A stretch of 28,538 bases of DNA from a virus: positions 1 through 28,538 of the IMG/VR virus record IMGVR_UViG_3300048549_000187. One strand, 5' to 3'. This document shows positions 964-24,708 of this stretch, one piece after another. Within the stretch, counting starts at the first letter, position 1; every line of letters begins with the position of its first letter. The position numbers and the translations under genes are program-made. The notes beneath the pieces are model-generated. The model made no database searches. It saw only the letters and a list, made by a program, of their open reading frames with translations, and was not told the origin of the DNA.

Positions 964-1413
964 TTGAAGCCTTGGACTCCATCTTTTTTCTTGCCAGTGT
1001 TGGTTCTGGTTCTTTTTGGTGGATGTTCCAAGGCTTCTTTTTATCCGTTAATAGGCAGTGTAGGTGGAGCAACTGTTGGTAGCCTTGGTGGTCCTGGTCC
1101 TGCTGCTGGTGGTGCTGCCCTTGGATGGGGAATAGGAGAGGGAGCTAAGTTAATGGAGGAGAACAAGGGATTAGCTAACAAAGTCAAAGCTATATCCGAA
1201 GGAGATGTACAGAAACTTGTACAACAACAATTAGACGAGAAGATGGATGATGGATTCTTTGATTCAATGTTAGATGAAGTATATGGATTCTTGAAACTAT
1301 GTCTTGTTGGTGTTATCCTTTGGAACATAGTACCTATCTTTTATACCCGATATGTACAGAAGAAATCTAACAATAATGATAAATCAATTAAAAAGACTAA
1401 GAAGAATTTATAA
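964..1413 (+). CDS. Small lipobox plus transmembrane protein; candidate unimolecular spanin
   Basis: I chose the TTG start at 964 because it gives a complete signal sequence; AGG lies just upstream. The 149-residue product has a hydrophobic N-terminus (about residues 8-18) ending in LFGGC, a lipobox-like site with Cys21 as the lipidated residue. Phe at -3 is not the usual Leu. Next comes a Gly/Ala-rich stretch (about 30-58), a polar helix (about 60-103), one clear transmembrane segment (about 108-128) and a Lys-rich tail. An outer-membrane lipid anchor at one end and an inner-membrane helix with a basic cytoplasmic tail at the other is the architecture of unimolecular spanins such as T1 gp11. 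Alternatives are a glycine-zipper membrane protein or a superinfection-exclusion lipoprotein. Its place between scaffold and capsid is not where T7 keeps its spanins (within gene 18.5). The function is inferred from topology only. Confidence 0.5.
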   Translation: MKPWTPSFFLPVLVLVLFGGCSKASFYPLIGSVGGATVGSLGGPGPAAGGAALGWGIGEGAKLMEENKGLANKVKAISEGDVQKLVQQQLDEKMDDGFFDSMLDEVYGFLKLCLVGVILWNIVPIFYTRYVQKKSNNNDKSIKKTKKNL

Positions 1414-1417
1414 TAAC

Positions 1418-1492
1418 TTGAACAAGAAGGAGAAGGCTATTGTCTTGACTGTTCTATGTTTAAGTGGAATTATAATACTTAATTTACTTTAA
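1418..1492 (+). CDS. Possible 24-residue membrane micropeptide
   Basis: A TTG codon at 1418, four bases after the previous stop, opens a 24-codon frame ending at TAA 1490-1492. The peptide begins with a basic NKKEK segment and continues as one hydrophobic helix (about residues 8-24), the shape of a single-pass inner-membrane micropeptide. There is no clear ribosome site, only GAAGAA about 9 bases before the start, and the start codon is weak. It could be translated by coupling to the upstream gene. Such short hydrophobic frames can arise by chance in AT-rich DNA, so this is a tentative call. If real, its position next to the spanin-like gene would suit a role in membrane disruption. Confidence 0.3.
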   Translation: MNKKEKAIVLTVLCLSGIIILNLL

Positions 1493-1607
1493 CAGACAAT
1501 TAGTAGTACTAATGTTAAGACCCACTGCGGTGGACAATCTCGATCAAAGGTTCAAACGAAAGTCGAAAAACAAATACTAATAATAACAATTACAACACAC
1601 ATATATT
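1493..1607 (+). promoter_or_regulatory. Leader of the capsid gene with a candidate phage promoter
   Basis: This non-coding leader holds the 16-mer CACTGCGGTGGACAAT at 1523-1538, including a small CCAC-TGCG-GTGG dyad. The same 16-mer with two changes occurs at 15747-15762. In T7 the strongest phage promoter (phi10) lies immediately before the capsid gene, so this is the best candidate for a promoter read by the phage polymerase. The following 60 bases are rich in A and C, look unstructured and lack a Shine-Dalgarno sequence before the capsid ATG. The promoter call is inferred from position and partial repetition, not from a known consensus. Confidence 0.35.
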
Positions 1608-2666
1608 ATGGCTAATGGAAATACATCCCCCTCACGTGTAGGACAGGTTAATAGTGCTAATGATGTAGATGCTTTGTTTCTTAAAAAGTTTAGCGGAGAA
1701 ATCTTGCAAACCTTTGAGGAGTCTAACGTCTTCAAACCACTACATACTGTTCGCACAATCGAAAACGGTAAATCAGCTCAGTTCCCAGTTACTGGAATTG
1801 CATCTGCTTCTTACCACACACCAGGCGAAAACATCGCTGACGCAGGTAACTCTTACCTAAGCGACATCAAGAAAGCAGAGAAAGTAATTACAATCGATAA
1901 GATGTTACTTGCTTCTACTTTCTTGGCTAACATTGACGATGTAAAGAATCACTACGACATCCGTTCCGTTTACGCGAACGAGTTAGGTAAGGCTCTTGCA
2001 GTTCGTTTCGATACTGCTCTATCTAAAACCTTTATAGCTGCTGCTCGTGGAGCTTCTGATATAGGTGGTAAAGTTGGAGGAATCCTCGATGTTTCTGCTA
2101 ACGCAATGGGAGACGGAGCTGATTCAACTGATGACGCTGACAACTCTGATCCAACAGGTGCTGAGTTAACTGCTGCTCTTTTCACAGCTGCTCAGAAGCT
2201 TGACGAAAACGATGTTCCTAGTGACGGTCGTTTCTGCGTACTTCGTCCACAAGAGTATTACAAGTTAATTACTGGTGGTGCTGGACAGCTTGCTATCTCT
2301 ACTTCCGCTGTTAATAAAGATGTCGGAGGTTTAGGAAGCATCGCTACTGGATCAATCCCTCAGATTGCAGGTATCACTATCTACAAAAGTAATCACATTC
2401 CTTCAACTGATTTATCAGCTGTTACTTCTGGCGATGGTGCTTCTAGCAATGATGTTTTCGGTGCAGGTGGAGCAGGTTATAATGGTAACTTCACCAATAC
2501 TCTTGGTATCGTTGCTCACTCTGCTGCTGTAGGAACTGTAAAGCTTCTTGATCTTGCTACTGAGTCTGAATATCAGATTGAGCGTCAAGGTACATTGTTC
2601 GTTGCTAAGTATGCTATGGGTCACGGAATCCTCCGTCCTGAGTGTGCTATCGAATTACAGAAATAG
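1608..2666 (+). CDS. Major capsid protein (T7 gp10-like)
   Basis: The product has 352 residues, close to T7 gp10A (345). It begins with a Gly/Asn-rich N-terminus, then a DALFLKKFSGEIL segment and an N-terminal arm, and continues as a typical HK97-fold T7-type shell protein with FRSG-like elements replaced by NGKSAQFPVTG at about 52-62. It forms the icosahedral head. It lies downstream of the scaffold, as in T7. Codon choice is visibly different from its neighbours, with more C-ending codons (GAC, AAC, ATC, TTC), as expected for the most highly expressed gene. There is no Shine-Dalgarno; the leader is an unstructured A/C-rich stretch ending ATATATTATG. A strong hairpin follows the stop. There is no sign of a programmed frameshift extension like T7 gp10B, but I could not rule one out. 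Confidence 0.95.
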   Translation: MANGNTSPSRVGQVNSANDVDALFLKKFSGEILQTFEESNVFKPLHTVRTIENGKSAQFPVTGIASASYHTPGENIADAGNSYLSDIKKAEKVITIDKMLLASTFLANIDDVKNHYDIRSVYANELGKALAVRFDTALSKTFIAAARGASDIGGKVGGILDVSANAMGDGADSTDDADNSDPTGAELTAALFTAAQKLDENDVPSDGRFCVLRPQEYYKLITGGAGQLAISTSAVNKDVGGLGSIATGSIPQIAGITIYKSNHIPSTDLSAVTSGDGASSNDVFGAGGAGYNGNFTNTLGIVAHSAAVGTVKLLDLATESEYQIERQGTLFVAKYAMGHGILRPECAIELQK

Positions 2667-2682
2667 TTCTCTCTTCGGTGTT

Positions 2683-2731
2683 GGGGAGGGGGACTGCGTA
2701 GCGGAATCCCTTCCCTTCACTGATATTTTTA
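2683..2731 (+). terminator. Hairpin terminator after the capsid gene (T7 T-phi position)
   Basis: GGGGAGGGG at 2683-2691 pairs with TCCCTTCCC at 2707-2715 (9 pairs, two of them G-U). Inside it CTGC (2694-2697) pairs with GCGG (2701-2704) around a 3-base loop. A TTTTT run follows at 2726-2730, ten bases after the stem. This matches the location of T7's main late terminator, directly after gene 10, which lets capsid mRNA accumulate above the tail genes. The gap between stem and T-run makes it imperfect as an intrinsic bacterial terminator, so it may act mainly on the phage polymerase or as an mRNA-stabilising end. Confidence 0.7.
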
Positions 2732-2747
2732 TTTACTAAACAATGCT

Positions 2748-3329
2748 ATGGCTTTAACGACTAAACTTGACGCAGTAAACATAATGATCTCTGTAATAGG
2801 AGAATCACCTGTTAATACATTAGGAGGCACAAGTGCTGTTCCTGTGACTGTCGTTCAAGCTGAGTCTGTTTTAAACGAGACAAGCAAAGCAATCCAATCG
2901 GAAGGCTGGCATTACAACACTGAGTATGATTATCCTTTAGTTCCTGATTCAGGTACTAGTAAGATTACTCTTCCTGTTAACACTTTAAAAGTAGATTTAG
3001 ACCCTGAGTTAAACACGGACACTGATCCTGTACAACGAGGTCTTAAATTATACGACAGGAAAAACCACAGGGATACTTGGACTAAGAGCTTAAAAGCTAT
3101 TATAACTTTTGAGTTAGCTTACGAAGAATTACCTGAACAATTTAGACATTACATATCTGTTAAAGCAGCTCGTATTTTTGCTGCCCGATTCTTAGGGAGT
3201 AGAGAGATAGAAGGGTTTGCTTTAAGAGATGAGATTGAAGCGAAAGCAAGAGCTATTGAGAGTGACTCTGAGAATGCAGATAGAACCATCTTCGATAACT
3301 ACAGCGTATTACGAGTACTTGATCGATAG
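2748..3329 (+). CDS. Tail tubular protein A (T7 gp11-like)
   Basis: The product has 193 residues (T7 gp11 is 196). It begins LDAVNIMISVIGESPVNTL and continues with EGWHYNTEYDYPL and a C-terminal ARIFAARFLGSREIEG segment, all characteristic of the gp11 gatekeeper/adaptor family. It forms the ring between portal and tail nozzle. It lies after the capsid hairpin and two bases before the tail tubular protein B gene, the fixed T7 order 10-11-12. No Shine-Dalgarno is visible before the ATG at 2748. Confidence 0.93.
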   Translation: MALTTKLDAVNIMISVIGESPVNTLGGTSAVPVTVVQAESVLNETSKAIQSEGWHYNTEYDYPLVPDSGTSKITLPVNTLKVDLDPELNTDTDPVQRGLKLYDRKNHRDTWTKSLKAIITFELAYEELPEQFRHYISVKAARIFAARFLGSREIEGFALRDEIEAKARAIESDSENADRTIFDNYSVLRVLDR

Positions 3330-20645: not shown

Positions 20646-20824
20646 GAGATACCCTAAAAGAAGAATTAACTAGATTAGTTAAGAATGAATCATTCAATAT
20701 TCAATATGCTAATGAGATATTAGAATTGTATGATGATGAAATTAATGATACGAGCGAGTTCACTGCATACGATAAAGCCATGCAAGATATTGATAACGTA
20801 AAAAATGGAGAGTGGGATTTATGA
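20642..20824 (+). CDS. Small acidic early protein, unknown
   Basis: The product has 60 residues, is acidic and helical (ANEILELYDDEINDTSEF), and ends NGEWDL. Its last codons contain the GGAG ribosome site of the methyltransferase gene, with which it overlaps by ATGA. No family is recognised. Confidence 0.65.
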   Translation: MRDTLKEELTRLVKNESFNIQYANEILELYDDEINDTSEFTAYDKAMQDIDNVKNGEWDL

Positions 20825-21714
20825 AAATAGATATAAAACTAGATAATGTACTCTCGTTATTTGATGGAATGTCATGTGGTCAATTAGCTTTAGATACTTT
20901 AGGTGTAAAGGTAGGTAATTACTTTGCCAGTGAGATTGATTCACACGCTATGCAGATAGCTAAAAAGAATTACCCAAACACTAAACATATTGGTTCTGTC
21001 TTGGATGTAAAAGGCAGTGACTTGCCCAGGATAGACTTATTAATTGGAGGTAGTCCTTGTCAATCTTTCTCAAACGCTGGTGATGGCAGTGGCATGGATG
21101 GAAAGAGTAAATTGTTTTGGGAGTTTGTACGTGTACTGAAAGAGACCAAACCTACCTACTTCTTACTTGAAAATGTTAAGATGAAGAAGGAATGGGAGAA
21201 AATAATAACCGACACTTTAGGAGTTGAACCAATTGCTATTAATTCTCGCTTACTTACTGCACAGAATAGACCGAGACTTTACTGGACTAATATACCTAAT
21301 GTTGTACAACCTATTGACCGAGGTATTGTGTTGAAAGATATACTAGAAGATCAAGTGGATGAAAAGTTTTACCTTTCCGATAAAGCTATTGATTATATGT
21401 CACGATTACGTAACGGAAAACCTCGTTGGGAATACCACACTAATCCGTTAGATGGTAAGAGTGCTTGTTTAACTGCTAATATGTTTAAAGGTGTACCTTA
21501 TGGAGTCATAAAGGAAAAGATGAGAAGACTCACACCTATTGAATGCGAACGCTTACAAAGTGTACCCGATAACTATACTGAAGGAGTAAGTAATACCCAA
21601 CGATATAAAATGCTAGGTAATGGATGGACTATAGATGTTATCACTCACATTTTAAAAGAGATGAGACACGCACCAGTGAAAACAACAACAAACAAACAAC
21701 TAATATTATTATGA
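20821..21714 (+). CDS. C5-cytosine DNA methyltransferase (Dcm/DNMT-like), solitary
   Basis: I prefer ATG 20821 (297 residues) over the upstream GTG at 20812, because GGAGAG at 20807 is well spaced and ATGA overlap is the local habit. Motif I is LSLFDGMSCG (11-20), motif IV is GGSPCQSFS with catalytic Cys80, motif VI is LLENVKM (Glu117), motif VIII is AQNRPRLYW (147-155), and motif X is RYKMLGNGW (261-269). The target-recognition part is short. The INSRLLTAQNRPRLYWTNIP segment resembles DNMT3-like and other phage enzymes. It would methylate cytosine C5 in a sequence I cannot predict. No cognate endonuclease is encoded nearby, so protection of phage DNA from host restriction is the likely role. 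It lies in the early operon just before the RNA polymerase. Confidence 0.93.
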   Translation: MKIDIKLDNVLSLFDGMSCGQLALDTLGVKVGNYFASEIDSHAMQIAKKNYPNTKHIGSVLDVKGSDLPRIDLLIGGSPCQSFSNAGDGSGMDGKSKLFWEFVRVLKETKPTYFLLENVKMKKEWEKIITDTLGVEPIAINSRLLTAQNRPRLYWTNIPNVVQPIDRGIVLKDILEDQVDEKFYLSDKAIDYMSRLRNGKPRWEYHTNPLDGKSACLTANMFKGVPYGVIKEKMRRLTPIECERLQSVPDNYTEGVSNTQRYKMLGNGWTIDVITHILKEMRHAPVKTTTNKQLILL

Positions 21715-22108: not shown

Positions 22109-22316
22109 TGATGAAGATTTTGATGAAGTGTATTACACTACCAGAGAGTTTGAATTGGAAGTAAAGAAAAAGTTTGAACTGTTTTGGATGAATAACCAAC
22201 TAGGATATGATGAGGTTGGACGATTGATACGAACAGATATACCAAGAAGAAAACCAAAGGAATGGAGAGAGTTCGTGTGGGGTTCTATCAAAAATAGAAA
22301 GATTAAAAGTGAGTAA
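22101..22316 (+). CDS. Small protein preceding the RNA polymerase, unknown
   Basis: The product has 71 residues: an acidic start (SSDEDFDEVYYTTREFELE) followed by a basic second half rich in Arg/Trp (RRKPKEWREFVWGSIKNRK). GGAGGAGG lies eight bases before the ATG, the strongest Shine-Dalgarno in the window, although it also encodes Glu codons of the previous gene. The stop overlaps the RNA polymerase start by eight bases, so it may couple polymerase translation. Confidence 0.7.
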   Translation: MSSDEDFDEVYYTTREFELEVKKKFELFWMNNQLGYDEVGRLIRTDIPRRKPKEWREFVWGSIKNRKIKSE

Positions 22317-24708
22317 AAAACGAGTAAGTGGACACCCGAAAGACGAGTATACTTGGGAGCAGTCAATGGTAGAGTGGGGAAAGCACAGGTACAGGAAGAT
22401 GAAGGAGGTATATAAAGATAACAATTACCTGTCCGAACAACCAAGCTATAAGAGACTAGGACGAGCGATACACGAGGACGTAGAGAATGCAATAGCAAGG
22501 TACTTTGAAGACTGTTCAAAACCTGATGCACCTGTACCTTTGTGGCTTCCTTTTGTATGGGATTTAGAACCCAGTGTGATTGCATATCTTGGCATTAAGA
22601 AATTATTTGATTTGTTAATTGACGAACCAAACATAACTGCCGCGAGTTTTGAAATGGCAAAGGCAATCGAAGATGAAGTACGTGTCCGTTACTTTAAAAA
22701 GCACATGAACAAAAGCGATTGGATGCTACTGGAAAGGGATAGAAAGGACGCGAAGAGTAGGTATCGTTTTATGTCCCACTTCTGGACAAAGGAAAGGAAG
22801 TTCCACAAACAAGGAAGGTATAAACGCTTCGATCTTTTTAAACAACACCATAAAGCAGTGATTGGGTGTTGGTTATTAGAAGTGATACGCTTACAAACCA
22901 ATTTATTTTCTGTCCGTGATCGATTCTGCCAAGGTAGAAAGACAAAGAAGATACTAGTTCCGAACCCTAAAATGTACGAGTGGATCAAGAAGTATGATGA
23001 ACACTGTGAAGTATTGTCTCCCTTTTGGTTAGCTACTCTTGAAAAACCTATCGAATGGAATGATAACTGGGGTGGTGGATACAGTTCTATTGAACTCCCA
23101 CAACTTCCTATTATGAAGAGGAGTGATATGTCTAGGGATTTATCCAAAGCATACGAACCGTTGAACAAGTTGCAAAATGTACCGTATCGATTGAACAAGA
23201 AGCTTTATGAAGTCATGCAATGGGCGTGGGATAATGACCTGTCCATCGGAGCTATGCAAAAGAGTCAGTTACTTGAACCACTTGAACCAATCGAAGGACT
23301 GGTACAGAAAGACCCTGAAGCTTTTATCGAGTGGAAGAAGAAGGCAAAGTATATCTACGAATTTAATCAACGGACGAACGGACAACGGATGAGGTGTTTA
23401 AAAATCTTACACGTCTGCAAGTTATACTCCGACAAGGAAAAGATATTCTTTCCAGTTCAAATGGATTACAGAGGACGAGTGTATTATGTACCTAGCTATG
23501 TTAACCCACAAAGTTGTGACCTTGGAAGGAGTTGCTTGGAGTTCTTTAACAGCGTACCAATTACTAACGAGAAGGAGAGTAGGTGGTTGTTGATTCACGG
23601 GGCAAATGTATGGGGTACAAAGGGGACTTATGAAGAACGCATTGCTTGGATAAAGAGCCGTGAAAATGAGATAAAAGAATGTGCATCTGATCCTTTTAAC
23701 AATAACTATTGGCAAGGAGCTTCTAATCCTTGGGCATTCCTGGCGTTTTGTTTTGAATATCAAGGGTTTAAGGAAGAAGGTTATGGTTTTGAAACGAGAT
23801 TACCTTGTCACATGGACGCTACTTGTAATGGTGTACAGATTCTATCTTTACTTTTAAAAGATGAGGAGATAGGAGGGTGGACAAACTTAGTACCACAAGA
23901 TAAACCAAAAGATTTATACCAAGAGATATGTGACCGTGTGAACGCTAGATTGCACAGGAATAAAAACCAACACTCTCTCGCTGGTGACTGGTTAAAGTGG
24001 GGTATATCAAGGAAGTATGTTAAGAAGATCGTGATGTGTAAACCTTTTGGAATGAATAGCTACTCTAGTGTGGATGAAGTAGAAGATGTATTCAAAAAGG
24101 AGGTGCGTAACGGACGAGTTAATCCTTTTAGTAACAATGAATATGTGGAAGCTATGCTCTACCTTGCTACCTTGATTAATGACGTAGCAAATTGGATGCT
24201 TGATAAACACATTACATACATGAGGAACTTGAAAAGGCAGATACGGAAATGTGATAAAAAATTTACGTGGACTTCTCCCTTTGGATTACCTATTGAACAG
24301 GAGCTTGTTAAGAAAGATAACCTTTATGTCAAGTCCGTCCTTAATATGCAAAGCATTCAAGTAAAGTACCGTAGAGATAATGATTTAATTTGTCCTTCGC
24401 AAATGGCTAAAGCTATTGTACCCAACGTGATACATAGTATTGATGCTAGTGTGGTACATTTTTTAGCTTGCAAATTCAAAGGTGATGTCTCATCTATACA
24501 TGACAGCTTTGCAACTCAAAGCCCTAACGCACCGAAGATGCACCAACAATTGAGAGAGATATACCAAGAGATTTTTAGTAACGACATCGGGAATAAGTTC
24601 AACAACGAAGTCGCTACACAAACTGGAACAAACGAACTGGAAGACAGCATAGAACTAGGCACACTTGATGTGTCTGCATTAAACGACTGCCAGTACCTGT
24701 TCTCATAA
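22309..24708 (+). CDS. Phage single-subunit DNA-directed RNA polymerase (T7 gp1-like)
   Basis: GTG start, 799 residues (T7: 883). Family landmarks: MDYRGRVYYVPS (385-396; T7 DWRGRVY), motif A PCHMDATCNGVQ with catalytic Asp503 (T7 Asp537), motif B KKIVMCKPFGM with Lys572 (T7 Lys631), motif C IHDSFA with His731-Asp732 (T7 His811-Asp812), and an aromatic C-terminus (YLFS). The residue matching T7 Tyr639, which selects ribose over deoxyribose, is Phe580. The region between motifs A and B is shorter than in T7 by about 25 residues. This enzyme would transcribe the replication and virion genes from its own promoters. The first-made copy depends on host polymerase. It starts within the previous gene and is followed directly by SSB. 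Confidence 0.97.
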   Translation: MSKKRVSGHPKDEYTWEQSMVEWGKHRYRKMKEVYKDNNYLSEQPSYKRLGRAIHEDVENAIARYFEDCSKPDAPVPLWLPFVWDLEPSVIAYLGIKKLFDLLIDEPNITAASFEMAKAIEDEVRVRYFKKHMNKSDWMLLERDRKDAKSRYRFMSHFWTKERKFHKQGRYKRFDLFKQHHKAVIGCWLLEVIRLQTNLFSVRDRFCQGRKTKKILVPNPKMYEWIKKYDEHCEVLSPFWLATLEKPIEWNDNWGGGYSSIELPQLPIMKRSDMSRDLSKAYEPLNKLQNVPYRLNKKLYEVMQWAWDNDLSIGAMQKSQLLEPLEPIEGLVQKDPEAFIEWKKKAKYIYEFNQRTNGQRMRCLKILHVCKLYSDKEKIFFPVQMDYRGRVYYVPSYVNPQSCDLGRSCLEFFNSVPITNEKESRWLLIHGANVWGTKGTYEERIAWIKSRENEIKECASDPFNNNYWQGASNPWAFLAFCFEYQGFKEEGYGFETRLPCHMDATCNGVQILSLLLKDEEIGGWTNLVPQDKPKDLYQEICDRVNARLHRNKNQHSLAGDWLKWGISRKYVKKIVMCKPFGMNSYSSVDEVEDVFKKEVRNGRVNPFSNNEYVEAMLYLATLINDVANWMLDKHITYMRNLKRQIRKCDKKFTWTSPFGLPIEQELVKKDNLYVKSVLNMQSIQVKYRRDNDLICPSQMAKAIVPNVIHSIDASVVHFLACKFKGDVSSIHDSFATQSPNAPKMHQQLREIYQEIFSNDIGNKFNNEVATQTGTNELEDSIELGTLDVSALNDCQYLFS

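Follow-up and report, generated by a model that had tools for sequence, protein, structure and literature searches.

The RNA polymerase encoded in the window, by which we mean the whole 28.5-kb stretch of viral DNA analyzed here, carries a Phe at the position of Tyr639 of T7 RNA polymerase, and this residue is fixed and derived in an entire clade of phage enzymes. At the level of sequence, the clade is the natural counterpart of the engineered T7 mutant Y639F, a change that is itself already known. The material for all claims is sequence and predicted structure.

By its gene content the phage is T7-like and of the Autographiviridae type. Profile matches identified the window as a fragment of a T7-like phage with terminase, nozzle, capsid and tail proteins, a gp2.5-like single-stranded DNA-binding protein (SSB) and a T7-type primase-helicase, and a 38-kb relative encodes DNA polymerase, exonuclease and endonuclease. 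The RNA polymerase matched PF00940 above the cut-off (235.4 bits for a cut-off of 22, E 1.5e-69) and phrog_414 over residues 13-799 (577.7 bits, E 7.9e-173). Its AlphaFold2 model reached a mean pLDDT of 90.2, and in a structure search with this model T7 elongation complexes headed the PDB list (Z 42-46, maximum 45.8; TM 0.82-0.84), while identity to T7 RNA polymerase is 23-25%. Just upstream of the polymerase gene lies a gene for a C-5 cytosine DNA methyltransferase (window positions 20812-21714; PF00145, E 1.9e-45). A simple repeat search for a promoter family gave no clear candidate.

The original prediction had read motif B as KKIVMCKPFG and matched Lys572 to T7 Lys631 and Phe580 to Tyr639. 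Both DNA and translation confirm the reading, and the correspondence is gap-free in a phmmer alignment to T7 structures as well as in an L-INS-i alignment of 109 representative RNA polymerases. A misalignment hiding a Tyr elsewhere could be ruled out, as no gap separates the equivalents of Lys631 and Gly640 and both Met635 and Gly640 are conserved. A sequencing or assembly error at Phe580 could be ruled out as well, considering that about 70 contigs agree and that their Phe codons vary synonymously. PMC5014404 quotes the PROSITE pattern PS00489 as [LIVMF]-x-R-x3-K-x2-[LIVMF]-M-[PT]-x2-Y, with an obligatory Tyr. The window enzyme (I-S-R-KYV-K-KI-V-M-C-KP-F) departs from it by Cys for Pro/Thr and by Phe for Tyr. 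Many of the sampled Tyr enzymes also fail the [PT] step, and PS00489 is therefore too narrow as a definition of the family.

Table 1. Positions of the RNA polymerase gene and of its motif B and active-site residues in the window.
Feature	Position	Strand	Basis or detail
T7-type single-subunit RNA polymerase gene	22309..24708	+	799 aa, GTG start; PF00940, phrog_414, AlphaFold2
Asp503 = T7 catalytic Asp537, conserved	23815..23817	+	alignment
Gly508 = T7 Gly542, gate position; Ala in one subclade	23830..23832	+	alignment
Arg568 = T7 Arg627, conserved	24010..24012	+	alignment
Motif B / O-helix KKIVMCKPFG	24022..24051	+	aag aag atc gtg atg tgt aaa cct ttt gga
Lys572 = T7 Lys631, conserved	24022..24024	+	alignment
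Phe580 = T7 Tyr639, codon TTT	24046..24048	+	phmmer and L-INS-i alignment
Met582 = T7 Ser641, clade-specific	24052..24054	+	Met in 6/6 clade Phe lineages, 0/100 Tyr representatives
His709 = T7 His784, second 2'-OH contact, conserved	24433..24435	+	alignment
Asp732 = T7 catalytic Asp812, conserved	24502..24504	+	alignment

An IQ-TREE phylogeny of the 109 representatives, computed with the motif-B columns removed, placed the window enzyme in one group of 6 representatives (SH-aLRT 99). The original prediction had suggested looking for a clade in which Phe is fixed, and this group is one: all 6 lineages have Phe, and every sampled member retains it although identity within the clade falls to about 55%. 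The sister clades read ARPYG, NRPYG or NKPYG, all with Tyr (joint clade SH-aLRT 97), and Tyr occupies the site in 100 of 100 other representatives. Judging from this distribution on the tree, Tyr is ancestral and Phe derived, and the phylogeny shows Tyr639 changing to Phe once in the ancestor of the window clade and being kept since then. Both TTT and TTC are in use within the clade (13 TTT and 8 TTC in its TKPFG group), meaning that the codon drifts under a constant amino acid. Over the whole tree there are at least 4 changes of state to Phe; the 2 singleton Phe enzymes (L082 and L113) sit on long branches, and a separate HTPFG group (L127) groups with the Tyr relatives L217, L231 and L240.

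We also looked at how common Phe is at this position. A query with the window protein retrieved 54 IMG/VR loci, and Phe was present in every locus reaching the site. As this first query contained the Phe motif, a control query was built from aligned motif-A regions alone, leaving motif B out. It returned 57 Phe and 20 Tyr sequences and no third residue; the Tyr sequences all belonged to sister clades or to more distant ones. In the motif-A query region the Phe sequences were 54-100% identical to the window and the Tyr sequences about 49-51%. A motif-B pattern requiring Phe matched 83 IMG/VR stretches, comprising 71 of the window clade, 10 of the HTPFG group and the 2 singletons (TRPFG in L082, LLSFG in L113), and its Tyr version matched at least 120. 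With the residue left free, 74 of the 80 matches listed had Tyr and 3 had Phe, the other 3 being chance matches; among the matches listed, Phe thus accounts for a few per cent. Sampling bias from the motif-B queries was controlled by the motif-A-only query together with this free pattern, and no residue other than Tyr or Phe was seen in the motif-A-only sample or among the residue-free matches listed. None of the 22 named phages examined, T7, K1-5, VSW-3, LUZ19 and Pelagibacter phages included, has Phe; all have Tyr. A scan of genome contigs found a single relative, which was distant and had Tyr. A contig of a Phycisphaera MAG assigned to Planctomycetes (L353), possibly a prophage or a plasmid, encodes a T7-type RNA polymerase with Tyr at the site that is 28% identical.

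Apart from Phe580, the window enzyme resembles T7 RNA polymerase in fold, in motifs A, B and C, in the catalytic Asp pair and in the residues matching Lys631, Arg627 and His784, and the alignment shows the equivalents of Met635, Tyr571 and Arg425 to be kept as well. Position 542 holds Gly and not Glu, as expected of a ribose-accepting type rather than of a DNA polymerase. With these active-site residues kept and the fold of a T7 elongation complex predicted, the enzyme is expected to be a working RNA polymerase, competent in catalysis and accepting ribose.

The original prediction had also pointed to Cys-Lys-Pro just before Phe580 as noteworthy, which did not hold up, because each of these residues is present in Tyr enzymes. 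At 638, Pro is the commonest residue, with 65/100 Tyr enzymes carrying it; Lys or Arg at 637 is also seen in the sister clades with Tyr, and 9/100 Tyr enzymes have Cys at 636. Cys-Lys-Pro as a compensating set is ruled out by the same occurrence. The unusual neighbor is instead Met582, which was absent from that list, and together with N583 and I574 it forms the residues beside the site that are private to the window clade. Two thirds of the Tyr enzymes have a residue other than Ser at position 641, so that loss of Ser alone is no sign of relaxed selection. One subclade (L028, L034, L035, L038 and further members, motif A DASCNAIQ) has Ala at the Gly542 gate, adding a second sugar-pocket change to Phe639, while Gly is found in 100/100 Tyr representatives. 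Apparent cases of Ala542 outside the clade (L134, L148, L183) proved to be false matches of a loose text pattern, the full alignment giving Gly in all 100 Tyr representatives. Among the other Phe enzymes, the L113 protein (1097-3262, minus strand) has Val at T7 Arg423, an Arg in 100/100 Tyr representatives, and may be divergent or decaying. The HTPFG group (L127, L098, L118, L074, L087) is a separate group of RNA polymerases with Phe639, and its motifs A (DQTCSGAGIIA) and C (NHDCFATDP) are odd; no match to a family-A DNA polymerase was found in 3 of its contigs tested, two of them 42-43 kb long.

The best matches among named phages are the Pelagibacter and MedDCM phages (Ayaqvirus and Pelagivirus, Autographiviridae), at about 28-31% full-length identity. 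As in the window phage, their RNA polymerase gene is followed by an SSB gene, but they have Tyr at the site. Nearest on the tree are the uncultured sisters NKPYG, NRPYG and ARPYG (L344, L336, L195, L244, L348), in which Lys/Arg-Pro likewise precedes the aromatic residue; they differ from the window clade by Tyr at the site and by Ala or Gln at 641. The T7-type DNA polymerase that this phage group encodes (L354-L362) has a motif-B spacing, R-x3-K-x7-[YF]-G, like that of the window enzyme, but its motif A carries a Glu gate (DASGLELR) and a Tyr matches Phe580 (R-x3-K-x3-Y-x3-Y-G). Phe580 therefore does not represent a move in the direction of the phage's DNA polymerase. A drift of the enzyme towards a DNA polymerase can be ruled out, considering that Gly508 is kept and that a separate DNA polymerase with the Glu gate and Tyr exists in the group.

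In T7 RNA polymerase, Tyr639 senses the 2'-OH, with contributions from His784 and Gly542, and it also pushes the RNA:DNA hybrid during translocation (PMC11617373). The same review names Y639 and G542 among the sugar-discriminating residues, and both positions are altered within the window clade. That Phe580 is the change of T7 Y639F, known to relax rNTP/dNTP selection, stands as originally predicted (PMC6511863, PMC8155940, PMC4538805): engineered Y639F uses both rNTPs and dNTPs (PMC6511863, PMC8155940), Y639F/S641A uses dNTPs better still (PMC8155940, PMC6141538), and dNMP misincorporation by T7 is about 1e-2 (PMC6511863). In cyanophage Syn5, the matching change Y564F lowers discrimination against 2'-F-dNTPs (PMC4538805), so that the effect of Phe is not peculiar to T7. 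The window enzyme shares its Phe with Y639F and, like the double mutant, is changed at 641; it differs in being natural, 23-25% identical to T7, with Met at 641, where the double mutant has Ala and T7 has Ser, and with Pro at 638, and the likeness is one of site sequence only. The literature covered, drawn largely from outside subscription journals, contained no description of a naturally occurring Phe at 639.

Cells contain far more rNTPs than dNTPs. The explanation we favor, and judge to be probably correct, is that this is a phage RNA polymerase transcribing phage genes and that the Phe clade discriminates rNTPs from dNTPs weakly, which the rNTP excess makes tolerable. Phe would retain the aromatic ring that NTP insertion and translocation require at the O-helix end; lacking the hydroxyl that senses the 2'-OH, it would distinguish rNTPs from dNTPs much more poorly than T7, as Y639F and Y639F/S641A do. 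Relaxed selection would be tolerated as rNTPs are in excess and as His709 and Gly508 would still favor ribose. The T7 triple mutant P266L/Y639F/H784A gave no translatable mRNA, for which its authors blame deoxynucleotides in the message (PMC8155940), and strong dNMP incorporation should therefore be costly. The triple mutant has H784A, whereas the window enzyme keeps its His784 equivalent. Considering this cost and the retained His784, we favor a moderate relaxation tolerated by rNTP excess over a full loss of selection.

Given an identity of 23-25% to T7, discrimination could be restored by differences elsewhere in the pocket. Selectivity may then be compensated by other residues of the clade, for example Met582/Asn583 after the O-helix together with His709 and Gly508, making Phe580 free of cost; we regard this as a serious but rather unlikely alternative. 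It would fit with M582, N583 and I574 being private to the clade and next to the site, with the presence of the His784 and Gly542 equivalents, and with a divergence to about 55% identity under constant Phe, which suggests that the enzyme works well enough. However, Met and Asn are no obvious stand-in for a hydroxyl facing the 2'-OH, and in T7 a change of Ser641 beside Phe639 worsened discrimination (PMC8155940). The original prediction had proposed that another residue may select the sugar. This gained no support: the remaining three Phe lineages share no substitution with the window clade, His784 is kept, and no replacement residue is evident from the comparison.

The phage might also exploit low selectivity, with dNMP-containing transcripts or replication primers being useful, for instance through nuclease resistance or a hand-over to DNA synthesis. 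The repeated origin of Phe on the tree, the position of the polymerase gene beside SSB, endonuclease and primase-helicase genes, and the ability of engineered Y639F to extend with dNTPs (PMC8155940, PMC6141538) are consistent with such a role. The gene order is nevertheless ordinary, as Tyr-bearing relatives too have the RNA polymerase beside SSB; the DNA polymerase of the phage's relatives is of the standard T7 type, with its Glu gate and Tyr; and among the annotated proteins of one 38-kb relative no nucleotide-pool genes were recognized and the replication genes were ordinary. We consider exploitation very improbable. A fuller form, in which the Phe family makes mixed ribo/deoxyribo transcripts or primers in infected cells with a pocket remodeled stepwise (Tyr639Phe and Met641, then Gly542Ala in one subclade) and a product useful to the phage, seems to us a long shot as well. 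Finally, Phe may be kept for translocation or speed and not for sugar choice, in line with the described role of Tyr639 in moving the hybrid (PMC11617373) and with a site that is always aromatic, Tyr or Phe, in the motif-A-only sample and among the residue-free matches listed. The ring is however common to both residues, which leaves the loss of the hydroxyl unexplained, and an effect on sugar selection would still be expected; we find this the hardest of the readings to credit.

The usual teaching is that T7-type polymerases discriminate for ribose through Tyr639. A clade that has kept Phe through deep divergence shows that the engineered change is tolerated, or made use of, in nature, and wild Phe enzymes may be sloppier about the sugar than textbook ones. 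The Phe enzymes are natural scaffolds for the production of 2'-modified RNA, and they make directly testable the question of how much sugar discrimination a phage polymerase needs.
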